From contig JAGVIE010000055.1 in NCBI GenBank assembly GCA_020056225.1, positions 1 to 64,000 on the forward strand: 64,000 nt of DNA, given 5' to 3'. This DNA comes from Bacteroidota bacterium. Its GTDB lineage: Bacteria > Bacteroidota > Ignavibacteria > UBA10030 > SZUA-254. The first letter of the stretch is position 1. Every line of letters starts with the position of its first letter. Below the pieces are notes generated by a model that saw only the letters and a program-made list of their open reading frames with translations, had not been told where the DNA came from and ran no database searches. Both the position numbers and the translations under genes were made by a program. Below, piece after piece: positions 8,704 through 62,304 of this stretch.

Positions 8704-10719
8704 TTACCGAATTAAGATCATTTTCTTCACATCGATGAATGCTGAGCTTGTCGAAGCCCCAGCCGTTAACTTGTAGTAATAGAGTCCACTTGCAAGATTA
8801 CGTGCGTCAAAATCCACCGAATATTTGCCAGCCTCTTTGTATTCGTTAACAAGTGTGGCAACTACCTGTCCTAAATTATTATAAACCTTAACCGTTACAT
8901 AATTGTCAATTGGCAATTGATAATTGACAATTGTTGATGGGTTAAACGGATTAGGATAGTTTTGTCCTAATGAATATTCTTTTGGCTGATTCATCTCGTT
9001 CTCATCAACCGCTGATGTGCCTACTATTATCTGTCCATTGGTTGGCAGTGCCAATGGTTTCCCTTCGTTCAGCAAGTTTGATGCGAAGTTAACAGGATAT
9101 GAGCCGAGAGGTGCTGATGCAGAAATTTTGTACCGTATCTTCAACAAAACTCCCGGTCCGGTTACAGGTGTAGCTCCGGCGGCAGTGATATTTACACTTC
9201 CCGCCGTGGGAGTTGCCATCGCAATCATCCGACCTTCGAATAATGTTCCTGCCGTAATAACCTCTATCGGCGTGAAGTAATTCTGGTTGTGAGTAAGAGA
9301 GAGTTGTGTTGAAAATACACCGGGCAGATATGATCCAATTTCCACCGACACCTCAACAGAATCGCCAGCAGAGCCGGTAACATTCAGCAAACGGATACGC
9401 ATATCGTACAAAGTAATATTGCCGCTTGTGCCTGTGGCTCCAACAGAATCGATAACCAAAACATGAATGATTCCGCTTTTCAACACTTTCAGTTTACCTG
9501 TTGATGAAATTGTTGCGAGGGTAGAATCGGTTACAGACCAAAAAACAGGAGGAGTTGCACCACCTGAAACAGTGAACTGCAAAGAATCTCCGGCAATCAT
9601 AGTAGCAGTAGAGGGAGTAACAGTTAGATTAGCGCGGAGAATTGGAGTGAAAGTTCCGTTCTTGATGTTTCCAGTTATGTTTTCGTTAAACAAGATGTCG
9701 GAAAGTTGAAGTGATGTTCCGTACGTGTTTATTTCGGTTATCTTGAAACGGATATAAGCGAGTATAGAAGTTCCTATACTGTTAAGGCGCATTGTATCGC
9801 TTGCGAATGCAACAGTTATCTTGCCCGAAGCGAAGTGCATAACAGGTGCAGGGAATGATGCTAACAATGCCCCATTAGTTATCATGTCAAGAGCAGTCAA
9901 TACGTTAGCATTATACGAAACGGAAAACGTGCCAGATTTAATATCGACTAAAGTAAGATCACTTATATAAATCGGAATGTTGATTGTTTGTCCCTGCAAA
10001 TATGTTGTGTCGCGAATTGTCAGTTTGAACGATCTCACTTCGATCAAACCTGTTGTATCGGTGATACCATTACTGTCAACTGCAACAACGCCGCATACAC
10101 CGCCATGTTGCGATGTTAGCAAACCGCTGGAGTTGATAGTTGCAACGTATGGATCCGTTGTATACCAACTATAAGGGGATTTACCACCGCTCACGCTAAA
10201 TTGCCATGTGTCTCCAACAGTAAGCAATGCTGTATTCGGTGAAACGGTTATGATAGGAAGATTGACAATTGTAATCGTTCCGTTTCTTGTACTTGTAGTG
10301 GGTGTACCTTCGTTAAAATACGCTTTAACAAATTGAAGCGAGGCATACGTTGATGTTGAAGTGAGTGGGAGCGATGTTTTAAGATATAAAAAGATTCCCG
10401 TTCCTGCGAGGGGAGTAGTCCCTGCACCGGCAATTGTGATTTTGCCTGAAGAGAGATGAAACGCAGGTGCGCTCCAACCCTCGATCATCGATCCGTTAGT
10501 AAGAACGGAATCGATGATCAAAGCACCGGCACTGTAATTAATATCAAGTTCGTACGATTTCACATTCAAGCCAGTAACACTGCTATCAATCCAAACTGGA
10601 ATGTAAACAGTTTTACCTCGCGTGATTGTTGAATCACGGAACGAAACCCTGATGGGTCCCGCCAATAAAGGCAGGACCGATAGAGTTCCGAGCAATATGA
10701 TGAATATAATTTTTTTCAT
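8704..10719 (-). CDS. T9SS-exported protein with three cohesin-like and two Big2-like domains
   Basis: A 671-residue secreted protein with a signal peptide (MKKIIFIILLGTLSVLPLLA). Three cohesin-like beta-sandwich domains (~22-150, ~232-365, ~442-565) alternate with two bacterial Ig-like (Big2) domains (~152-230, ~368-440, with the VGDTWQFSVSGG / AGDSLQFTVSGG signature). A T9SS type A sorting domain begins at [10 protein letters not shown] (~590) and ends KKMILIR. Cohesins bind dockerins; the neighbouring giant protein carries a dockerin-like segment, so the two may dock on the cell surface. That pairing is inferred. The tail contains an ASTSSAF insert encoded by a dispersed repeat (GCTGAGCTTGTCGAAGC, 8741-8757). 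A TAAGGAGC ribosome site supports the start. Confidence 0.88.
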   Translation of the reverse strand: MKKIIFIILLGTLSVLPLLAGPIRVSFRDSTITRGKTVYIPVWIDSSVTGLNVKSYELDINYSAGALIIDSVLTNGSMIEGWSAPAFHLSSGKITIAGAGTTPLAGTGIFLYLKTSLPLTSTSTYASLQFVKAYFNEGTPTTSTRNGTITIVNLPIITVSPNTALLTVGDTWQFSVSGGKSPYSWYTTDPYVATINSSGLLTSQHGGVCGVVAVDSNGITDTTGLIEVRSFKLTIRDTTYLQGQTINIPIYISDLTLVDIKSGTFSVSYNANVLTALDMITNGALLASFPAPVMHFASGKITVAFASDTMRLNSIGTSILAYIRFKITEINTYGTSLQLSDILFNENITGNIKNGTFTPILRANLTVTPSTATMIAGDSLQFTVSGGATPPVFWSVTDSTLATISSTGKLKVLKSGIIHVLVIDSVGATGTSGNITLYDMRIRLLNVTGSAGDSVEVSVEIGSYLPGVFSTQLSLTHNQNYFTPIEVITAGTLFEGRMIAMATPTAGSVNITAAGATPVTGPGVLLKIRYKISASAPLGSYPVNFASNLLNEGKPLALPTNGQIIVGTSAVDENEMNQPKEYSLGQNYPNPFNPSTIVNYQLPIDNYVTVKVYNNLGQVVATLVNEYKEAGKYSVDFDARNLASGLYYYKLTAGASTSSAFIDVKKMILIR

Positions 10720-10748
10720 TTTAGTTTGCTCCTTATTTTAATTTGAAT

Positions 10749-13700
10749 TTATTTCATGAGGAGCATTTTCTTTACGCTCGTGAAGTTTTTATTTCCGGCC
10801 ACCGTTATACGGTAAATATACATGCCGTTTGCAACCGGAACGCCGAAGTTGTTCGTCCCATTCCATTCAATCTGATATTCACCTGCGGATTGAGTTACAT
10901 CGAGAAGTGTACTAACCAATTCACCGATGGAGTTGTAAATCCGGAGAGTAATATGTGAAGCATCTTCCGGTATCTGATATCGGATGGTAGTTGTTGGGTT
11001 GAACGGATTGGGGTAATTCTGATCTAAAGCAAATTCGGTTGGTTTACCGTTGATGGTTAAATCACGGTTAATTGCCGATGAGCTTAAATCAACTTCGTTG
11101 ATGAGCAGTTTGGTGAAAGTGATTTGGGATTTCACAACGCCGCGCACATTTCCGGCGATATCAAATGTGATGAACAGGAGGTTGTCATCGGCATCAATAA
11201 GCTTATTGCTTGCCATAGCGATGTTGATTGAACCGTTAGCGAATTTATTCTGCATCAGCATTGAAGAAACACCTGAGGCGAGTTTTATTTCCTTAGGTGT
11301 AAGAAGTTTCGCGTCGTATTTCAATCCAATATCAACCGATGCAAAATTCCTTAATCCATCAACTCTGATTGGAATGGTGAAAGATGAAACGGTCGTGCTT
11401 ACCGGTTCACCAACTTCAATAGATGAAGCACTAAGACGCGGTAGAGTTGTGGAAATATTTTTCCCCAACTCACTTGGGAAGTTTAAAATATTACCGACGA
11501 CATATTGCAGAATTAATGAAGCATCGTAAGAGGTGATTCCACCAGCCGCGCTCACATCTGCAACTTTCTGTTGAATTGCATCCAGTGGATAAGTCCCTGG
11601 ATCAACCACGTATTGCAATATTACGGTTGCATCGTACGCCTGCACAAAGCCATTTAAGCTGACATCTCCGGCAAGTGGCGCCTGAGCACCGATTGTTCTG
11701 AATGGTGCATACTGGACGCTATCGGTTACTTTATCTCCCGTACCGAGTGGGTTTCCTGAATGTGTTGGTCCTGAGTTATTTCCCCACCAATTATAACGTG
11801 CATCTATATTAAACGTTTTATTAACGTTGTTGACTCCGTAATTCGAATTTTGGTATATGTCGCTGTAATTCATGACCGGCTTTGCTGAACCTGTTGCTTT
11901 TATTGCATCGTAGTTCTTCGAGAATGAAGAGTATGTAATTGTGGGGCTTGCATTATTAGCCGTTATTGCTGCTGTGCTATAAGAGAGTCCAGCATATCTA
12001 AAGATACAATTTTTAATTCTGCAGAGAGGATCAAGTGATTCATCTTGGAACGTAATTCCATACCAGCCATTATAGCTGCTGTAAGGAGAAGTAGCTGTTG
12101 TATCTGCGTTTGTATCTCCACCATAAAAATCGTCTCGGTAGTCGGTAAATACAATCGCGCTGTCTGGAGTGGCACCGCCTTCAGCAATAAGTCCTTTTCT
12201 TACCGTCATACCGTTGTAATAAAAGAACTTGATAACCAGCCCGGGAGAAATTGTGAGAACTGCACCGGTGCCGATGTTGTAATTTCCGAATAGGTAAGGA
12301 ATGTTGGTTACACCTGCGAAGTCTCGTTTTACAAGTGTTACATCTTGTACGAGTGTTTCGTTTTCAAGAACACCGATTGCTCGAAATGTTTTTCCTGAAA
12401 TAACATTGTTCGCGGTAGAGCGTGGATACGAAACAAGAGATGTTCTTATCGGTGCGTAAGTGAGGTTATTAAAAACACAAGTATCAATAATCGGGTCCGA
12501 GACACCGGTGAGGTACATACCCCAATTATCTTTATCGAAAGTTGTATTAATAATCTTTGGTGAACTGCTTAAGGTCGTGATTCCGCCCTCGCGATAACGT
12601 ATGATAGCGTGATTAACAAAGCTCAAACTGTCGTTACTGATATCCGAGAAATATACGCGCTGTCCACCCTGGATGTTTGGTAATGTTAGTGATCCGTCTC
12701 CTTTTGAATCAGCCGGGTTGCCATAACTGTCATCAGCATCGTCAGTGAAGATCACCGGCGATGTTGAAGTCCCGTTGACTACTATAGCACCATTGACGGT
12801 CAAGTCACCATTCTTGAAAACAAGACCGGCAGGAATTGTCAATACAGTCCCTGAATTAATAGTGCATGTGGTGTATAAATAGTAAGTGATGTTATCATAT
12901 CCGGCAAAATTCCGAATAGGAATAGTATCATCTACAGAATAATTTTCCGGAACAATACCAAGCGCCATATATCCGATATTCAAAGCTGAAATGTTGGTGA
13001 ATGTCGGGTTTGAGAACATGCTCATGGCAACCGGACAGCCGGTTATATTATTTATCTGAAGGTTAGAGAATGTTGGATCGGCACTCCCGAAAACCCCGAT
13101 TGCAGTTGTACTCGATTGCTGGATAACACAGCTATCTGCAACGACTTTGGAGTTTGTTACCCTGATTACTCCATAGGTATAGCTATACGCATAAGCTCCA
13201 CTACCGCCATATCTGAATTCACAATTCTTAAATGAATTCAAGGTATCAGCAGATGAACTTACGAAATCGATGACATTCCAATTTCCGCGAGCAGGTTGAG
13301 AAGCGTTTCCATCGTTGTTTGTATCTCCTCCATCCGCATCGTCTGGTAATGAAGTGAAAATAATTTTTTGTACTGCAGTACCGTCGGCAATTAGCGCACC
13401 CTGAACAGCAATGCCGCTGTAACCGTTGTTAACAAACTTAATTACTACACTGGGTGCGATAGTGAGAACAGCATTCGGTGCAATGGTCAAGTTGCCTACG
13501 ATGTAAGCAATATTATTTATTCCTGCTACATCGCGAGTGTTAAGAATTGCGTTTGATGAAAGAGTACCTTCCAGAATCCTGATGCCTTTACTGCCATTCG
13601 CGGCAAATGTTATATTCAAAAAAGTCGGATCGGAAGTCAACGACATCGCAATTGGGTCTAAGCGGCAATTAATGATATCAACACCATTGATAGTTGGCGT

Positions 13701-15998
13701 TGCACCGCCATCGCATTCAATACCGTAATAATAAATATCACTGAGTATGGTGTTTGATAATGTTCCACCCGCGTTTGTAAATGTCACTCCTCCATAATAC
13801 GATCCTCCGTATTTTATCAAACAACTATCTATGAGGCAGAATCCATCATCACTCGTTGCTAGAAATTGAATTGTTTGCCAATTACCCCAAGCAGGAGAAG
13901 TTGCAGCGCCATCGCCATTAGTATCGCCGGGATTTCCAAAATTATCATCTTTGAGTGATGTAAAAACAATTTGTCCACCCACTGCTGTTCCTTTAGCTCT
14001 AAATCCGCCGTTAACATAGATTCCCTGTCCATTTACTTTGATTATAACACCTGGATCAATTGTCATATTCGTTCCGGAATTAACTGTCAGGTCCTCAAGC
14101 AACACGTACGTGATGTTATCATATCCTGCAACGTTACGTTTCCGAATAGTTCCATTGAATCCTAAATTTTCACCGACGATTCCTAACGCAGTCCATGTAG
14201 TGTTGATGAAATGAACTCCGCTAAATATTGGATCGGCAGAAACCGAGAGAGCAATCGGTGTATAAGTTGTATTGATTATGGTATCGTTGATGATTCTAGG
14301 TCTTGAAGATTGAAATGCATAAATACCGTAATAAGTATCTTTAAGAATACAGTTTGATATTGTCGGAGACGTTCCAACAGTTGTTACCGTACCACCACTG
14401 ATATAGCGCGTATTATAATACGACCCCGGTAGACTTGCATACTGAAAACGGCAGTAGTTCAAGATGGAGGTAGTATCACTTCCTTGTTCGAATACAATTC
14501 CACCCCAATCACCTTTGTTTGGTATGGTTTGAGTTCCGTCTTTGTTCGAGTCGCCCGGGTTCCCAAAGTTATCATCTCTGGCAGAGGTAATTGTTATCAT
14601 ACTGTCGGGAGTTGCGTTTGCTGTTAATTTCCCTTGAACGATGATTCGTTGATAATTGCTGTATCCCTTTATTACAACTCCTTTATTGATGGTAAGACTG
14701 TTGCCAACCGGGACTGTAACAGCTTCAAGAAGGAGATAGGTTACGTTGGGAATCGATGTAACAGAGCGGATCGGAAGAACTGCATTGGCTGGAAGCGTTC
14801 CACCGAGCAACCCTATTGCGTCGTAAGTATTATCGGAAAAAGAAAATGTGTTGTTTACAAAATTTGGATTTGCAGCAAATGACATGGCAATGGGAACCAT
14901 ATCACTTGATCCGATTGTATTATTTATAAAATTCGGATTTGAGACATATTGCATCATAGCGCCGTAATAGTTATTTGCCATATCACAGCTATCGACAGTC
15001 GGGCTTGCATTATACATTGTTATGCCGCCGATATTTCCTGAGCCGGCAAATGTTATATTACATCGTCTCATTATACAACTTCCATCTATGCTGGCATCTT
15101 GAAACACCACGCCATCCCAATATCTCGAAGCAGGAGCGGTTGCGGTTCCATCAGCATTTGTATCGCCGCCGACATTATCGTCTGTATAACTGGTAAACTG
15201 AATGTTTTGACCCGATGCTGCTGTAGCATTTAGTGAACCACTCACATCTAAACGTCCGCCGCTTGTGAACTTCAACATATTTCCCGAAGCAATCTGCATC
15301 GAACCGCCTGCATATACTGTATAATATGCTAATACATATGGAATGCTAACAGTATCGAGGACCAATGCATTGGAGTTGCCATAGTAGCTCAACGAAATTC
15401 CGTTATGCGTATTACCGGTAAGAATATTACCGGCATTAAAAATTAGTGAGCCCGGTCCATTATAAACGATGGGCCAATCGCACGAAGCGATATTACTGTT
15501 AGAAAGAGTCGCCGTGCCCGAAGTGTTCAATAAAATACCATAATTTTTACTGCTTGTAATATCTGTTCCACTTAAAGTTGCAGAACCCCAATAGACATAA
15601 ACATTCGGATTTGCAGAAGGGAAGGATGTCGTGCCACCATACCTGATTCGGCAAGTATCGAATTTTGCGGTGCCGCTGCTGCTGTTGCCGACCTGTATAT
15701 AATTCCAATCTCCTTTTGCCGGGATTCCACCAACTGTATCTTTAGCAGAAGTAAATAGAACATACCTGGCGTTCAGCGTGCCGTTGATATACAGACTCTG
15801 ATTACTTTGGAATCGAACCGTAACTCCGGAATCGATTGCCAGAGTTTTGTTCTGGAGGATCGTTGCGTTGGAAGTTACAATATACGGACTTGAGCTTCGT
15901 GTCCATATTGTATCCGTTATCGTTCCGGATACGATCGTCTGTCCGTTCACACTTGCTATGGTGAGCAAGACAGCAAAAAGCGTTAATACTAATTTCAT
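10749..15998 (-). CDS. Giant parallel beta-helix protein with dockerin-like, cohesin-like and T9SS domains
   Basis: A 1749-residue exported protein. I place the start at the ATG at 15998 (MKLVLTLFAVLLTIASVNG, a signal peptide) because an AAGGAGT site precedes it; the frame stays open for 60 more codons upstream. The body is six to seven tandem units of ~200 residues (~600 bp), each with right-handed beta-helix turns of the NosD/pectate-lyase type and a Ca-loop-like DTNxDG or DSNKDG sequence at ~280, 487, 690, 890, 1093 and 1297. A two-repeat dockerin-like segment follows (~1443-1510; GDVSLNGF...YDATVILQYV and SYDASLILQYV), then a cohesin-like domain (~1519-1649) and the T9SS type A tail. The helix likely serves in adhesion or polysaccharide binding; no catalytic residues could be assigned. 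Confidence 0.88.
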   Translation of the reverse strand: MKLVLTLFAVLLTIASVNGQTIVSGTITDTIWTRSSSPYIVTSNATILQNKTLAIDSGVTVRFQSNQSLYINGTLNARYVLFTSAKDTVGGIPAKGDWNYIQVGNSSSGTAKFDTCRIRYGGTTSFPSANPNVYVYWGSATLSGTDITSSKNYGILLNTSGTATLSNSNIASCDWPIVYNGPGSLIFNAGNILTGNTHNGISLSYYGNSNALVLDTVSIPYVLAYYTVYAGGSMQIASGNMLKFTSGGRLDVSGSLNATAASGQNIQFTSYTDDNVGGDTNADGTATAPASRYWDGVVFQDASIDGSCIMRRCNITFAGSGNIGGITMYNASPTVDSCDMANNYYGAMMQYVSNPNFINNTIGSSDMVPIAMSFAANPNFVNNTFSFSDNTYDAIGLLGGTLPANAVLPIRSVTSIPNVTYLLLEAVTVPVGNSLTINKGVVIKGYSNYQRIIVQGKLTANATPDSMITITSARDDNFGNPGDSNKDGTQTIPNKGDWGGIVFEQGSDTTSILNYCRFQYASLPGSYYNTRYISGGTVTTVGTSPTISNCILKDTYYGIYAFQSSRPRIINDTIINTTYTPIALSVSADPIFSGVHFINTTWTALGIVGENLGFNGTIRKRNVAGYDNITYVLLEDLTVNSGTNMTIDPGVIIKVNGQGIYVNGGFRAKGTAVGGQIVFTSLKDDNFGNPGDTNGDGAATSPAWGNWQTIQFLATSDDGFCLIDSCLIKYGGSYYGGVTFTNAGGTLSNTILSDIYYYGIECDGGATPTINGVDIINCRLDPIAMSLTSDPTFLNITFAANGSKGIRILEGTLSSNAILNTRDVAGINNIAYIVGNLTIAPNAVLTIAPSVVIKFVNNGYSGIAVQGALIADGTAVQKIIFTSLPDDADGGDTNNDGNASQPARGNWNVIDFVSSSADTLNSFKNCEFRYGGSGAYAYSYTYGVIRVTNSKVVADSCVIQQSSTTAIGVFGSADPTFSNLQINNITGCPVAMSMFSNPTFTNISALNIGYMALGIVPENYSVDDTIPIRNFAGYDNITYYLYTTCTINSGTVLTIPAGLVFKNGDLTVNGAIVVNGTSTSPVIFTDDADDSYGNPADSKGDGSLTLPNIQGGQRVYFSDISNDSLSFVNHAIIRYREGGITTLSSSPKIINTTFDKDNWGMYLTGVSDPIIDTCVFNNLTYAPIRTSLVSYPRSTANNVISGKTFRAIGVLENETLVQDVTLVKRDFAGVTNIPYLFGNYNIGTGAVLTISPGLVIKFFYYNGMTVRKGLIAEGGATPDSAIVFTDYRDDFYGGDTNADTTATSPYSSYNGWYGITFQDESLDPLCRIKNCIFRYAGLSYSTAAITANNASPTITYSSFSKNYDAIKATGSAKPVMNYSDIYQNSNYGVNNVNKTFNIDARYNWWGNNSGPTHSGNPLGTGDKVTDSVQYAPFRTIGAQAPLAGDVSLNGFVQAYDATVILQYVVDPGTYPLDAIQQKVADVSAAGGITSYDASLILQYVVGNILNFPSELGKNISTTLPRLSASSIEVGEPVSTTVSSFTIPIRVDGLRNFASVDIGLKYDAKLLTPKEIKLASGVSSMLMQNKFANGSINIAMASNKLIDADDNLLFITFDIAGNVRGVVKSQITFTKLLINEVDLSSSAINRDLTINGKPTEFALDQNYPNPFNPTTTIRYQIPEDASHITLRIYNSIGELVSTLLDVTQSAGEYQIEWNGTNNFGVPVANGMYIYRITVAGNKNFTSVKKMLLMK

Positions 15999-18476: not shown

Positions 18477-21400
18477 CTATCGCAATAATACCATCTTCTT
18501 CACATCGATGAATGCTGAACTTGTGGAAGCACCAGCCGTTAATTTGTAATAATAAACTCCGCTTGCTAAGTTGTTTGCGTTCAACTCCACCGATTTATAT
18601 CCTGCCTCCTGCATTCCATCGACCAATGTTCTCACTTCTTGTCCAAAGACGTTGTAGATCTTCAGCGTAACGTAATTCTCAGTCGGCAATTGGTAATTGA
18701 TAACTGTAGATGGATTGAAAGGATTGGGGTAATTTTGCTCTAAAACAAATTCATTCGGCAATACAGATGCCGGAGCCGAAAAGAGCCGGAGCCGGATATC
18801 AGTTGTCGGATTACCAATCTTGGTTGTTCCTTCTTGATCTAATGCAATTTCTTTTCCATCAATTATCAGTAATGCTTTGCGGCTTCCATCGTCCATCTTC
18901 CATCCGATTGTTATAGGATATTCGCCGGATGAGATTAAGATTGGAAAATCTTTTAGCCGTTCATTCTCTGCCAATGCGAGGCGGTATCCACCTGCGAAAC
19001 GTACATCAAATACTCCGTCCGGCGGAGGTGGTGGAAGCTCAAACTTATCCATACTTTTTTTCAACTCATCCGCAAAACTAAAATAGAGTGTTTTATTGTT
19101 CCCGATGCGATCTTCTATTGTAATACTATTCGGCGGAGTAGGAGTTTGATTCAGCGTGGAAACCGATGTAACTGCCTGAGATGTAAAAGCGTTGAGAACA
19201 AGTTTTCCGTATGATTTAACTTTCACCCAATAACTATGATGTGGCAGAAGATCAGGACAAGGTCCATAGTCACAATAGTAATCATGATAACCCGAAATGA
19301 TAATACTATCAGGAATCTGGATTACAGAAGTTTTTACAACATTCTTTGAGAGTGTTGCAATCATATTCCATCCGGCAAAAACATCGATTGTATCTATTAA
19401 TCGTGGAAGACCCGGAATCATAACATTCAGCGATGAATTAGATTTCAACCAGAAGCCCATCTTCTCAGGTATGGTGTCGAGTGGAATATATGAATTCTTG
19501 TATATCCATGCATCGGACACCGCGGAAGGATAAATAGAGTACCGATTGTGATCCGTTACTTTATTGGGTAAAGATAACAAATTCCAGCCCCAAAGAAGTT
19601 GGTATGTTGAGTCGGGGAAATAATAATTACCAAAAATAAAACCGCTTGTATCAAGTCCGCTGGTCATCGTGATTGAATATGAACCGTAATTAAGCGGAAT
19701 AGTCTGGAACCAACCAACCTGAGCGCTCTCCGATAGTGTGTATGCGCCGGCACCGATATCCGTGAAAGTGAAATTCCCATCACCATCGGTTGTTGTACGG
19801 TAGGAGGTGGGTCCGGTAAAATTCAAAACCCAATTTGCCAGTCCGGGTTCCCCTGCATCCCGAACACCATTATGGTTTGTGTCGTCGAATGCTATACCGT
19901 GCACAGTAGCGAGTTGAAAATTTCCGAAATTGATTCCGGCAGTATCAATACCGTGCAGAAGATTGATTGAATATGCTGATGCCGGTACCGATTCTATCCA
20001 TCCGATTGGAAGGTTCTCCGTAATCGAATAAGTGCCGATGGCAAGACTATCGAAGAAATAATTTCCATCGACATTTGTTATAGTAGAATCTGTTATTGCT
20101 CCTGTAAGATATATCTTTTTCCCGGAAATAACCGGATCGCCGATATCTTTAACGCCGTTGCCATTTAGATCGTGGAAAACATTGCCGCTGATTTGCCCCA
20201 TAGGCAGTGCGCCAAAATATTTAATAGCGCTATCTGCATTTAATATTCCCCAGCCCATCAGGTTGTTCGGTGCCGACGCCTGGCTCGCTGTTTGCCGCAT
20301 AGCATCTCGCACCTGCATTGGAGTGAGATTTGGATTAGCACACCGAATGAGTGCGGCAACACCGGCGGATAGCGGACAGGAAAATGATGTCCCGTTTGCT
20401 GAACCATATCCCGTCGTATTAGTAGAGCTTGCAACTTTTACACCGGAACCCATTGCCATTATATCGGGTTTGGTTCGTCCATCGGCTGAGGGTCCAACTG
20501 AACTGAAAGAAGTTCGTGTGCCGTTTGAGTACACAGCACCGGCGGCTATAACACTATCGCCATCCGAAGGCGCACCGAGTGTATTATGAACTCCGTCTCC
20601 GGCGCCGGAATTTCCTGCTGAATTAACGACAGCGATTCCCAGGCTTACAGCATGATCGGAGGCTTGTGTTACCAATGTCGTGTTGCCGTCCATATCTGCC
20701 CATGTCCAGCTTGTATATGGCGCATCATAAGTTAAATAGCCGAGCGATGTACTTGTCACATCTACGCCGATACTGTCAGCCCATTGGATTGCCGCCGCCC
20801 AATTATCTTCTTCAATCGGTGTTTCGCTCGAATCGTTCTCTGTTCGTGCAAGAATATAATCCGCTTTGAATGCCGGACCAATCAACTGTCCCGGTTTATA
20901 CCCGCCGATTGTAGAAAGTGTATTCACTCCATGCGATCCGAAACCTGTGCTTGGATTGTATGGAATCACACTCTCTTTGTGATCTACAAAATCGTGTTGA
21001 GCGATTATGTTCATCGAAGCGAATGATTCATGATTAAGAATCCGGAAACCATTATCGAATACACCAACTACTACTCCTTGTCCGTATATGCCGAGATTGT
21101 GTACCGCAGGTACAGTGATTTGGTTTACCTGAGTGAATGATGTTCCGTAGTCAAGCGCAGTTGTTCCGCTGGGCATTGGCTGTGGGAATGTTTCTTTAAG
21201 TGGAGATTCTACTTCGTCGTCGATTTTCTTTTTCCATCTTCCCACTATCTCAATCTCTTTTACAAATGATAAAGATTGGAGTGTTTCAATCTGCTGTTTC
21301 GTTGCAACTACGCTCACCGCGTTAAACCATTTCAACTCATGCCGGACTCTTAGCACCCGGCTTGATACCGCCTGAACATAGGAATGCTCGAGAGGATAAT

Positions 21401-21656
21401 CACGCTCGTCGATAATATTGTTCCGAACTTTCATTCGCCGGGCGATGGAACGTTCGGAAATAAAATTTACAGACATACTCGATTTGAATTTGGTAATGTT
21501 GCCCTTGTCGGTAAAGTACACAAGGACAACAATCTCGTCGTTATTATTCATCGCAGGTAATTGTTTGCTCAGGAGTTTGCCAATCTGCGCCTGTTGGGCA
21601 ACGGATGCGCAAGTTATGATGAAAATGAAAGATAGTATCGAAAGAAGAGTTTTCAT
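18477..21656 (-). CDS. Subtilisin-like (S8) surface protease with SdrD-type repeats and T9SS tail
   Basis: A 1059-residue exported serine protease, counted from the ATG at 21656, which begins a good signal peptide ([20 protein letters not shown]). An ATG four codons upstream is also possible, and no ribosome site decides. An I9-like prodomain region (~30-120) precedes the S8 domain with the triad Asp in VGVFDNGF (~200), His in GSHGVN (~240) and Ser in NGTSFSCP (~423), plus oxyanion Asn in [11 protein letters not shown]. Two SdrD/CNA-B-like repeats follow (~486-575 and ~580-680; [20 protein letters not shown] Ca-binding loops), then a beta-rich region and the T9SS type A domain (~967-1059). 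It probably degrades or matures proteins at the cell surface. The tail carries ASTSSAF, as in the cohesin protein. Confidence 0.92.
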
Positions 21657-21795
21657 GAAATCTGCCATATAGGTTAGTTCGCTTGTCGGAATATTCTTAA
21701 TAAAACTTACCAAAGTTTGAGGGGAAAGTCAAGAAGTTGAATTCAGTTTGAGTTTTCACTATCTTTGTAAGGAAATATCGCATATTATAATAAAA

Positions 21796-58586: not shown

Positions 58587-61500
58587 TCACTTGATCATCA
58601 ACATCTTCTTTACACTGACAAAATTCTGCCCGACAGGATTATCTTCATCTGTTATGGTCTCTGCGACTAAACGGTAGAAGTAAACGCCGGATGAGAGATT
58701 TATTGTAGCAGCCGACAATTCGACCTCTTGAATTCCATCTCCCATTTCTTGCTTATCGAGTAGTGTTGCTACTTCCTGACCGAGCGTGTTATATATTTTT
58801 AATGTAACGAAGCTCTGGTATGGAAGGTTGAATTCTATCGTAGTCGATGGATTGAATGGATTAGGATAGTTTTGATACAACATAAATTGCTCAGGGACAA
58901 TTGAGGGAATCGGTTTAAATGCAAACGTTCCCATGGCGATGAATGAGCTGTCAAGATGGAAGAACGGCACATCTTTAAGCTCATAAACCGGGGTTAGGCG
59001 TAAGCCAGATGCAAAGCTAATTGTATCGATCGGACCAACGAATGCAGAATCGATTTTCCGAATTATGCGATAGAACTCCACTGAATCTATTCCTTCAAAC
59101 CAGGGTGGAGACTGACGTACTTTGAAAGTATCATTGTAACCTGACATGAACGAATCCAATCTTGCTGCTATCGCTCTGATAGTCAAGCCGTTCATTGTAT
59201 GCGCGGGATCGTAACCAGTGCCTTCATCAAAAATTAAGCCAGCAAAACCGCCAGGTAGAATCCCATAATCGCTACCATTGATATTTGCCTCAAGAGCTAT
59301 AGCTTCGGCAAATAGCTTATTGTTATGCTTCGATGGTGGCAAATATTTTTGTTGAGTTTTTATCGGCCTGTAAGTAGTGCCACTGAATTTATCCAGACAA
59401 CGTGGTGCACCGATATGCATTCCATGAGGATCGTATAATGACTTAAGAACATATTTGTAAGTCGGGTGTAGTACAGTATGTTTACCACCTAAGCCGACTT
59501 TCAAATTTATTCCAGCGCCTGCAGATAAAACATTGATTGCATTTGGCATCGGGTAACATAAGACATTTTTTGCAACAATAGCGTCGATTCTCCATGGACA
59601 TTCCGGTAATGAAAATTTTCTGAATCTGTACTTTGTTACAACTTGCAATTTGGGCTTATTTACCCATCCTTCGAATCTGATCGTATCTCCTACATTAAAA
59701 CTCAAACCTCCATTCCATGTCAATTTCCATCTCTTAAGCTTAGAAGTGAGAACCGGTTCAACCAACGGCATCGTTGGAGTGATTACCATCGGCTTTGTAG
59801 TGTCGACCGGTTGTCCGAAGACGATTTCTAATTGTTGGGTGTTTAGTGAATCGACAATGAAATAAAATTCAAATTTCACTTTGTCGGGTCTTGTTAAAAT
59901 GGGATTATGTTTTCCTCTTAGATCAAGTGCCTGAGCGAAGTCTTCGGGTAGGAATGTCCGGAAAGCCATACTAAACGTATTATCAGCCACGTTACCGAAG
60001 TCTTTTCCGGTTAAATTTTCCTCAAGATTTAAATTGATTATATGCGGTCCAAGATTCGGTGGATGAGTTTGCCGCCAGTTGGATTTCATCACTTCACTGA
60101 CTGTATAACGACCGGGCCACAAACCTGTAAATGAGTAATTACCATCTTGATCGGTAACTACTGAGCCACTGGCAGATGTTCCGTAATATGAAGTACCCAC
60201 AAGAGTGATTGTCCATCCGCTTAATCCCGGCTCACCTTGATCTTTTGAGCCGCTTGAATCGAGGTCGTTGAATTTCATCCCGCTTATTGAACCCGGGGAT
60301 AATTCATAATTACCGAAGTCAACACTATCTAATAATTCACTATTGTGCAACACGAGATCGTACTGCGAGATTGGATACGAGGGCCACCAGCCGATGTTTT
60401 TCTGGTCGATAATCTCTTTTACCACGCATCTTCCGGCAGGAACTCCCTGGAACTGATAGTATCCACTGCTATCGGAAGTACGCTTCCGGTTGTAAATGAT
60501 GTCGTCTAATTCGTCGAACACCTTCAGTTGGATAACGAATCCCGGCACTCCAAGCTCATCAGGATCGAAAATACCGTTGCGGTTGCGATCATTGAATTTC
60601 TGACCTATCACGGCATTCGTTAGTGGTGAATAATAATTTCCAAAGTCGTTGCCGTTCACAATAGTGCTCAAATCGGGAATGTCGATTGTATATGTTTCAC
60701 TTGGTGGGAACGATTCAACCCACCCTTTCTGCAGGCGGCCCGGGGCTTCACTTACAACATATCTGCCCGGCTGGAAAACAAACAGTTGATATAATCCAAT
60801 TGAATCGGTGTAATCGTAATCTATCATATTACCGAGTGTATCGGAGAGGATTACCCTCCATCCGAATAACATTGAATCGGTACCGGCATCATAGGCACTG
60901 TTCATATTTACATCGTTAAATACAGACCCGTTGATGAGGCTTGCGTTTGTAAAATTACCGAACCAGACACTATCTACGAGTGTGTCCGGGGTTGACATCG
61001 TGATACTCCATGATGATGGAAATGGTGATGGGAAAGTTTGTGTCCATCCCGGCTTTAACTCATCTGTGATGGTATATGTGTCAAGCGGCAATGGCAGCCA
61101 ATATTTTCCCCGATAATCTGTTTTTGTTGTTATGGTGATCGAACCGCTGGCGGCGGTAACGAGCCAGTCTTTTACGCCTCTGTCTGTACTGTCTTTAATT
61201 CCATTGCTGTTAACATCATAGAAAGTTTTACCGGTAATCAATCCGCCCTGATCGAATACTAAAACATTATCCACGAACCATCCTGGAAATTCATTGAAAA
61301 GTGAATCACCGGTATCAAAGTAGAACCGTATTTTTATTGTTTGATTTGTGTAAGATGAAAGATCAAGCGATGAAATCGTCCATCCATCGCTATTGCCTGA
61401 TGGCGCTGAACCATATCCGCCCCGGAGAGGTGTCCAATTAGCCCCGCCATCATTACTTACATCAACCATACAAAAATCCCACCCTAATTCAGTAACTATA

Positions 61501-61997
61501 TTCTCGGTGAAAAGCATCTTGATCGGACCGGTTGCACCTGTTAAATCAATTGACCGGGAGACGATTGCAGAATTAACGCGCTTGCCTGTGTTGTAGTTGG
61601 CATTGATATCATTTCCAAACCACCAACTATTAATCGGAGAGTTTGAATTTATAGTTGTTCGATGCCACAAGTCATCGCCGCTGTACACTTCTGATGTCCA
61701 GTCAGATGTACCTGATTCCATATCATCGTGAAAAAAGATCGTTGATGCGGTTTTATAATTTCGATCGATGTTAATTCCAACCTGAGCAGGTGCCGCGGAA
61801 AGTTTCTTAAGCTTCGAATTTTGCAGTTCAAGCGCCGCTTGCCGATGAAAATCGCGCAACTGCTGAGCGGCGTTCATTGCACGTTCACGAAGCGATTGTT
61901 TCCTTTGCTGATCGCCCGCAAGTGATAGCGGTGAGGCGATGACAGTGAGTAGGATTACAAATGCAACCAGAAAAAATATTGTACTCAGTGATTTCAT
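58587..61997 (-). CDS. T9SS-exported protein with jellyroll domain and four SdrD-like repeats
   Basis: A 1136-residue surface protein. I start it at the ATG at 61997 (GAGGGT site; signal peptide MKSLSTIFFLVAFVILLTVI), 27 codons inside the open frame. A jellyroll domain of the immune-inhibitor-A/MAM type (~75-250, FFHDDMESGTSDW ... GWFVDNVLV) precedes four SdrD/CNA-B-like repeats (~255-345, ~350-460, ~465-570, ~575-680), each with a Ca-loop such as DVNSNGIKD, DRNRNGIFD or DLDSSGSKD. Then follow a beta-rich region and the T9SS type A domain (~1045-1136). Rigid Ca-bound repeats suggest a stalk or adhesin. No catalytic residues are recognised. Confidence 0.88.
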   Translation of the reverse strand: MKSLSTIFFLVAFVILLTVIASPLSLAGDQQRKQSLRERAMNAAQQLRDFHRQAALELQNSKLKKLSAAPAQVGINIDRNYKTASTIFFHDDMESGTSDWTSEVYSGDDLWHRTTINSNSPINSWWFGNDINANYNTGKRVNSAIVSRSIDLTGATGPIKMLFTENIVTELGWDFCMVDVSNDGGANWTPLRGGYGSAPSGNSDGWTISSLDLSSYTNQTIKIRFYFDTGDSLFNEFPGWFVDNVLVFDQGGLITGKTFYDVNSNGIKDSTDRGVKDWLVTAASGSITITTKTDYRGKYWLPLPLDTYTITDELKPGWTQTFPSPFPSSWSITMSTPDTLVDSVWFGNFTNASLINGSVFNDVNMNSAYDAGTDSMLFGWRVILSDTLGNMIDYDYTDSIGLYQLFVFQPGRYVVSEAPGRLQKGWVESFPPSETYTIDIPDLSTIVNGNDFGNYYSPLTNAVIGQKFNDRNRNGIFDPDELGVPGFVIQLKVFDELDDIIYNRKRTSDSSGYYQFQGVPAGRCVVKEIIDQKNIGWWPSYPISQYDLVLHNSELLDSVDFGNYELSPGSISGMKFNDLDSSGSKDQGEPGLSGWTITLVGTSYYGTSASGSVVTDQDGNYSFTGLWPGRYTVSEVMKSNWRQTHPPNLGPHIINLNLEENLTGKDFGNVADNTFSMAFRTFLPEDFAQALDLRGKHNPILTRPDKVKFEFYFIVDSLNTQQLEIVFGQPVDTTKPMVITPTMPLVEPVLTSKLKRWKLTWNGGLSFNVGDTIRFEGWVNKPKLQVVTKYRFRKFSLPECPWRIDAIVAKNVLCYPMPNAINVLSAGAGINLKVGLGGKHTVLHPTYKYVLKSLYDPHGMHIGAPRCLDKFSGTTYRPIKTQQKYLPPSKHNNKLFAEAIALEANINGSDYGILPGGFAGLIFDEGTGYDPAHTMNGLTIRAIAARLDSFMSGYNDTFKVRQSPPWFEGIDSVEFYRIIRKIDSAFVGPIDTISFASGLRLTPVYELKDVPFFHLDSSFIAMGTFAFKPIPSIVPEQFMLYQNYPNPFNPSTTIEFNLPYQSFVTLKIYNTLGQEVATLLDKQEMGDGIQEVELSAATINLSSGVYFYRLVAETITDEDNPVGQNFVSVKKMLMIK

Positions 61998-62304
61998 AAG
62001 ACCCTCGTATGGTTTGTGAAATATGCGGATGAGGATAGTCATTTGCTTGTTGGTAATGAGAGAAAATGCTTCCTCCAAGTATAAGAATTCTATGATTTAA
62101 AGTCAAGAAGATTTAACAAAGAAGATTGGATAATTATTGTTCTATTGGCATGATTTCGGCAATTCTTCCATAATCTAACTATTTCTATGAAAAGATAAAT
62201 TTCAATCTAATGTTTAACAATACTTGGTCAAAAGTTGGGCTTGTACGAAAGCCATCACCGAATAAAATATTATACTTAATTACAACTTATTTTACGATTT
62301 TTCC

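Follow-up and report, generated by a model that had tools for sequence, protein, structure and literature searches.

A recurrent pair of T9SS-tailed genes places a dockerin-bearing beta-helix protein beside a three-cohesin protein in a candidate non-cellulosomal surface assembly

Cohesin-dockerin pairs are best known from cellulosomes, in which dockerins outnumber cohesins, and their role elsewhere is an old question. Among the non-cellulosomal cases, the system of Archaeoglobus fulgidus presumably comprises two adjacent genes, one of which carries both modules; it is archaeal, unlike the bacterial pair described here, and to our knowledge it lacks a T9SS, a giant beta-helix and a three-cohesin partner. 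Archaeal non-cellulosomal versions are given as verified to bind in the available text of a study of such proteins (PMC9012536). The dockerin/cohesin proteins of ANME archaea treated there are likewise non-cellulosomal and combine one dockerin with several cohesins per protein, but they are archaeal, their partners vary, and the same available text describes no conserved two-gene cassette (PMC9012536). The cellulosome-like complex of Ca. Stygibacter (Cloacimonadota) resembles our pair in that a C-terminal domain attaches its cohesin scaffoldin to the organism's own surface, and in having dockerin-bearing partners, whereas its scaffoldin is 3,755 aa long and carries CBM2/CBM3, and its dockerins sit on enzymes (GH18, GH57, peptidases); a two-gene rod-and-hub pair is not described for this organism in the part of the report available (PMC8542988). 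For the cellulase genes of Melioribacter roseus, the accessible portion of the source reports no dockerin (PMC3534657). Cohesin-dockerin assembly and surface-tailed scaffoldins are, on the accessible text of these sources, already known (PMC8542988, PMC9012536); a conserved two-gene rod-and-hub cassette was not found described in the literature searched by title and abstract start, which mostly excluded subscription journals.

The window, meaning the whole stretch of 64,000 nucleotides that was analysed, carries two neighbouring genes, here called A and B, on its minus strand, with B lying 29 bases downstream of A (Table 1). The original prediction had described one protein with three cohesin-like domains beside a neighbour in which a two-repeat dockerin-like segment and a cohesin-like domain follow a six-unit beta-helix, and every one of these modules was recovered. 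In B, PF00963 matched three stretches (86.5 bits), giving the order cohesin, Big_2, cohesin, Big_2, cohesin, T9SS tail, while the modules of A were identified by Pfam, by predicted fold and by their loops. Elsewhere the window encodes two further proteins that combine a T9SS tail with SdrD B-like repeats (18477-21713 and 58587-62078, minus strand); the one listed first is a subtilase.

Table 1. Coordinates of the two genes and their modules, numbered from the first letter of the window
Feature	Coordinates	Strand	Remarks
Gene A	10749..15998	-	1749 aa when started at 15998 (likely ATG); carries a likely signal peptide, a beta-helix of six units, a dockerin, a cohesin and a T9SS tail
Likely signal peptide of A	15942..15998	-	Putative, read off the sequence by eye
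Right-handed beta-helix of A	11690..15941	-	Six ~200-aa units, with an acidic loop of the DD..G..D type in every unit; Pfam Beta_helix, loops, blastp
Dockerin type I of A	11499..11672	-	Two repeats; Pfam over cut-off; fold match Z 12.3
Cohesin of A	11088..11417	-	PF00963 over cut-off; relatives-built profile 83 bits; fold Z 14.9
T9SS C-terminal sorting domain of A	10752..11042	-	TIGR04183 24.8 bits, cut-off 23
Gene B	8704..10719	-	671 aa; three cohesins separated by two Big_2 domains, then a T9SS tail
Cohesin B1	10303..10647	-	Relatives-built profile 69 bits; Pfam 23.4 bits, just below cut-off
Big_2 region B1-B2	10024..10302	-	Inter-cohesin gap; Big_2 found in B
Cohesin B2	9676..10023	-	Pfam; relatives-built profile 79 bits
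Big_2 region B2-B3	9397..9675	-	Inter-cohesin gap; Big_2 found in B
Cohesin B3	9058..9396	-	Pfam; relatives-built profile 94 bits
T9SS C-terminal sorting domain of B	8707..8985	-	TIGR04183 33.9 bits, cut-off 23

Most of A is occupied by the beta-helix, which Pfam Beta_helix matched in 8 stretches. The acidic loops at residues 273, 475, 684, 886, 1089 and 1289, spaced by 200-209 aa, mark the six units and probably bind calcium. Searched against solved structures, this region gave no match at E up to 1, while blastp with the window beta-helix matched all 72 of the 72 A regions of other loci. In one A gene (L075, G037:C10), an in-frame TAG interrupts the beta-helix.

The dockerin that follows scored 24.9 bits with Dockerin_1 (PF00404; cut-off 22.9) in the whole-protein scan and 32.4 bits in the genome search. 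It spans residues 1503-1560 of the 1809-aa open reading frame, or 1443-1500 when counted from the ATG at 15998, within the segment 1443-1510 originally named, and residues 3-73 of its predicted structure match the double dockerin 8x39 of C. thermocellum (Z 12.3, rmsd 1.4, 69 residues aligned). Under the calcium-loop pattern applied (D1, x3, N/D5, D12), loop 1 is intact (D-V-S-L-N-G..D) but loop 2 is degenerate, with alanine at position 5; the absence of a calcium-binding loop had been named in advance as part of what would refute the original prediction, and it is not what the sequence shows. Among 82 aligned dockerins, position 5 of loop 2 varies (N 32, A 18, T 11, D 8), and 81 retain D, S and N as loop 1 ligands, with a gap in the remaining row. 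Positions 10-11 of repeat 1 are A/S then Y/F in 82/82, and position 11 of repeat 2 is Y or F in 74/82; positions 10-11 are the recognition sites that govern the specificity of clostridial dockerins, and a dual binding mode is possible where the two repeats are alike.

The degenerate second loop, in modules known here from sequence and predicted folds, would fit a reading in which the dockerin-like and cohesin-like modules are structural fillers of surface proteins that bind nothing, their adjacency reflecting history only. This explanation sits poorly with the retention of the loop 1 ligands and with the recurrence of the pairing rule at an unrelated subtilase locus of the source genome, described below, and we consider it very improbable.

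Cohesins were searched genome-wide with PF00963 (cut-off 24.1 bits), which recovered those of A (32.1 bits), B2 (36.2 bits) and B3 (37.4 bits); B1, although just under this cut-off on its own, is recognised by a profile built from relatives (Table 1). The A cohesin, over the cut-off in this search, is absent from the output of the whole-protein Pfam scan; its predicted fold matches type I cohesins (Z 14.9), with 2xdh among the top fold matches (Z 14.6). The latter, from the likewise non-cellulosomal A. fulgidus proteins, is also the best cohesin match by sequence among solved structures (E 0.019). Searching B against solved structures yielded intimin chains over the Big_2 part, one weak match to a viral protein and no cohesin. 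A strand-by-strand comparison aimed at the binding face showed stronger conservation of loop 4-5 and strand 5 in B1 and B3 than in A, a difference that does not by itself locate an interface.

Both proteins end in a sorting domain of the T9SS, and the genome encodes the sortase PorU (970.6 bits) and the translocon SprA (1030.1 bits) of that system, so that the two tails have a likely export route. No catalytic family was detected in A or B by the Pfam scan of the window pair, and B had no match to a CBM family in Pfam at E up to 10. Set beside a cellulosome, B has the several cohesins of a scaffoldin, but a CBM and dockerin-bearing polysaccharide-degrading enzymes were not found. The cohesin and dockerin folds are shared with the clostridial cellulosome (type I; 2vn5, 8x39), from which the pair differs in lacking catalytic and carbohydrate-binding modules, in being T9SS-anchored and in the predominance of cohesins over dockerins.

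That predominance emerged from an inventory of dockerins across the 3.5 Mb source genome, a check proposed with the original prediction, in which three dockerins exceeded the cut-off and all three adjoin a three-cohesin gene. Besides the dockerin of A, one lies on a paralogous A gene and one on a subtilase; a fourth match (contig C62, 15.4 bits) is below the cut-off. Pfam returned ten cohesin matches at E up to 10, nine of them at three places: the window pair, the paralogous pair on contig C60, and a three-cohesin gene beside the subtilase-dockerin gene on contig C43, where one cohesin exceeds the cut-off. The tenth (contig C5, 14.3 bits, below cut-off) stands apart, and no cohesin over the cut-off occurs outside the three places. 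Since every dockerin over the cut-off adjoins a three-cohesin gene and cohesins over the cut-off are confined to these places, chance is excluded as an explanation. The ratio of cohesins to dockerins is ~3:1, the opposite of that in cellulosomes.

The C43 locus (L014:6678-12906, plus strand) encodes a subtilase with a dockerin and a T9SS tail and, in the next gene, three divergent cohesins split by HYDIN/ASH-like Ig domains, and is a second, separate case of the rule that joins a dockerin gene to a three-cohesin gene, with an enzyme as cargo. In proteins with no recognised cohesin, such as this subtilase, the stretch after the dockerin was compared by hhalign as a candidate diverged cohesin: the probability was 44% against A cohesins and 36% against B3, and at most ~1% against B1, against B2 and against two controls.

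Across 40 genomes including the source, 26 had a dockerin match and 26 a cohesin match (E up to 0.01). When the dockerin loci of the relatives were annotated with profiles built from those same loci, A followed by a three-cohesin B was found at 19 loci in 14 genomes, with a one-cohesin gene between A and B at two loci (L055, L074). Other dockerin proteins of the relatives are either cohesin-dockerin-cohesin chains or a dockerin and tail with no recognised cohesin. Seven loci (L034, L035, L041, L044, L051, L063, L071) unite cohesin-dockerin-cohesin and a T9SS tail in one protein, with no three-cohesin neighbour in the stretch examined; L034 also has CARDB and L063 PD40 propeller repeats.

Scanning a wider collection with the dockerin-cohesin profile A1 confirmed 175 places, the best 80 of which were analysed; this set overlaps the 40 genomes, and the two sets of counts are not additive. 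At all of these best 80 of 175 loci A is directly followed by a cohesin gene, with a median frame gap of 16.5 bases. The following gene holds exactly three cohesins in 73 cases, four in 1 and fewer in 6: a contig end cuts off three of the six (L138, L148, L156), at two others an additional one-cohesin gene precedes the one with three (L116, L118), and at L157 a three-cohesin gene comes after an A gene whose frame is broken. A gene with at least three cohesins was seen at 77 of these 80 loci, the other 3 being those cut by a contig end. Within A, again among the best 80 of 175, an HMM cohesin follows the dockerin in 75 genes, with linkers of 19-50 residues, and none was recognised in 5.

Some variation surrounds this arrangement. 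The one-cohesin gene between A and the three-cohesin gene at L055, L074, L116 and L118 is a possible fifth socket, and some B genes (L159:10937-18163, L013:12093-16868) bear long C-terminal additions, either He_PIG/Big_9 repeats with DUF4350 or DUF7619, beyond the constant three-cohesin block. No third conserved gene was found near the pair in the best 80 of 175 loci. A group of LuxR-type response regulators occurs nearby in 10 of these 80 (flanks L094-L173), three of them Balneolota; 7 members lie upstream, where more than 1.5 kb was present in 50 loci, and a hybrid-sensor-like protein was found in 8/80.

By the NCBI labels, which may be wrong for metagenome genomes, the best 80 of 175 loci fall in Bacteroidota, Ignavibacteriota, Chlorobiota, Balneolota, Fidelibacterota (Marinimicrobia), Kryptoniota, Calditrichota, Fibrobacterota and Cloacimonadota, with four unlabelled; the carriers include named Balneola, Carboxylicivirga and Labilibacter. 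With the beta-helix as query, 12 of 296 genomes of the phylum matched at E up to 1e-40, and all 15 full-size matches selected in this way carry a dockerin and a cohesin and are followed by a three-cohesin gene; of the two partial matches, one is a fragment at a contig end and the other the N-terminal part of a gene that contains a TAG. The dockerin-cohesin profile matched 47 of 296 genomes at E up to 1e-10, many of them weakly. On these counts, the pair is patchy and not universal. Because the same two genes stand side by side in bacteria of several phyla, a dedicated surface assembly is probable and a cellulose-degrading complex is not.

The modules of the pair are unequally conserved. From 60 full A genes, 51 loci were usable, and 41 once near copies had been removed; over 362 between-phyla pairs, the median identity (in %) was 61.8 for the dockerin (54.2 outside the scan patterns, whose placement within the dockerin inflates its conservation), 49.0 for the beta-helix, 40.7 for Big_2, 35.0 for B2, 34.4 for B1, 30.8 for the T9SS tail of A, 27.4 for B3 and 23.7, the lowest value, for the A cohesin. 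The original prediction had offered two outcomes, a non-cellulosomal surface assembly and polymers through head-to-tail contacts. The first is well supported by the T9SS tails and machinery, the lack of a catalytic family and the adjacency across phyla. In the second, the dockerin of A would bind the cohesin of the next A, so that the rods form rows or a lattice in which B acts either as a three-way node or as a cap. Both modules are indeed recognised in A at 75 of the best 80 of 175 loci, and with T9SS tails on both window proteins such links would run along the surface; however, the A cohesin diverges fastest (24% between phyla) while B1, B2 and the dockerin are better kept, and pairing within one chain would compete with polymerisation and could block it. 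Polymers are thus less favoured, and we hold them to be quite improbable.

A tree of 308 cohesins, in which A genes with no HMM cohesin (5/80) were excluded and B rows were taken only from genes with at least three cohesins, required 4 changes for the position label A/B1/B2/B3 (minimum 3) and 54 for the phylum label, although many forks are unresolved and B1, B2 and B3 do not each form one side of a single branch. As cohesins group by position in the cassette and not by phylum, the four-socket layout was most likely in place before the pair spread, to judge from these sequences. Phyla are intermingled in the beta-helix tree (9 changes, minimum 6), and the window A is 60% identical to a Cloacimonadota copy and 58% identical to its own paralog, a pattern that fits either horizontal spread or an old duplication. 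A second A lineage (L040, L058, L074, L171, L189) has a different giant beta-helix with the same tail, and again a three-cohesin neighbour.

Structure prediction bears on which cohesin the dockerin meets. AlphaFold2 modelled the dockerin-cohesin segment of the window with pLDDT 90.2 and pTM 0.87, and that of a Balneola member, from a disjoint alignment, with pLDDT 90.3 and pTM 0.85, one of five models being poor. High pTM for two domains joined by a loose linker suggests that the dockerin and the A cohesin of the same chain are held, in the models, in a fixed mutual arrangement. The dockerin might accordingly bind the cohesin that follows it, forming a permanent membrane-proximal knob, with the B cohesins acting as Ig-like spacers or binding something else. 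Confident models of two distant members lean this way, implying that the dockerin may be occupied in cis, and the linkers of 19-50 residues and frequent co-occurrence of the two modules (75 of the best 80 of 175 loci) agree. However, pTM alone does not establish the canonical interface, the most conserved domain would be paired with the least conserved, and the three-cohesin gene next door would be left unexplained; we judge this same-chain arrangement somewhat unlikely.

The reading we prefer, tentatively and at just short of an even chance, is that A and B constitute a dedicated two-gene, T9SS-exported surface assembly in which the A dockerin plugs into the B cohesins in trans. Made from one operon, the two proteins would be exported and trimmed by the T9SS and each fixed on the outer surface near its C-terminus. 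A would form a long rod, some 25-30 nm as estimated from the number of residues, whose beta-helix bears acidic loops that probably bind calcium and whose dockerin is membrane-proximal, and B a short hub with three dockerin sockets, so that one hub could gather up to three copies of the same rod. The A cohesin would add a further socket, more diverged than the others, which may shield the dockerin during export or connect rods side by side; trans and cis pairing may perhaps alternate, the dockerin being masked during export and plugged into B outside. The strong conservation of the dockerin, the rod and B1/B2, together with the weak conservation of the A cohesin, leans towards binding to B. Against it count the cis packing in the AlphaFold2 models, the ~3:1 excess of cohesins and the ligand missing at position 5 of dockerin loop 2, and a comparison of dockerin and cohesin distances singled out no partner (correlations 0.42-0.57, Big_2 control 0.56).

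A wider proposal, which we regard as unlikely, is that the pair is a module shared horizontally among Bacteroidota, Ignavibacteria, Cloacimonadota and Marinimicrobia, building bouquets or lattices of calcium-stiffened beta-helix rods on three-socket hubs as a general cohesin-dockerin surface architecture unrelated to polysaccharide breakdown, with the cis cohesin masking the dockerin until export. Between phyla the rod keeps a median identity of 49% across ~1,400 residues, which suggests, from sequence comparison, a specific surface role. The pair is compact and repeatedly conserved, combining a single dockerin with four cohesins that belong to distinct lineages, and its presence in named organisms (Balneola, Carboxylicivirga, Labilibacter) makes the question of non-cellulosomal cohesin-dockerin systems testable.
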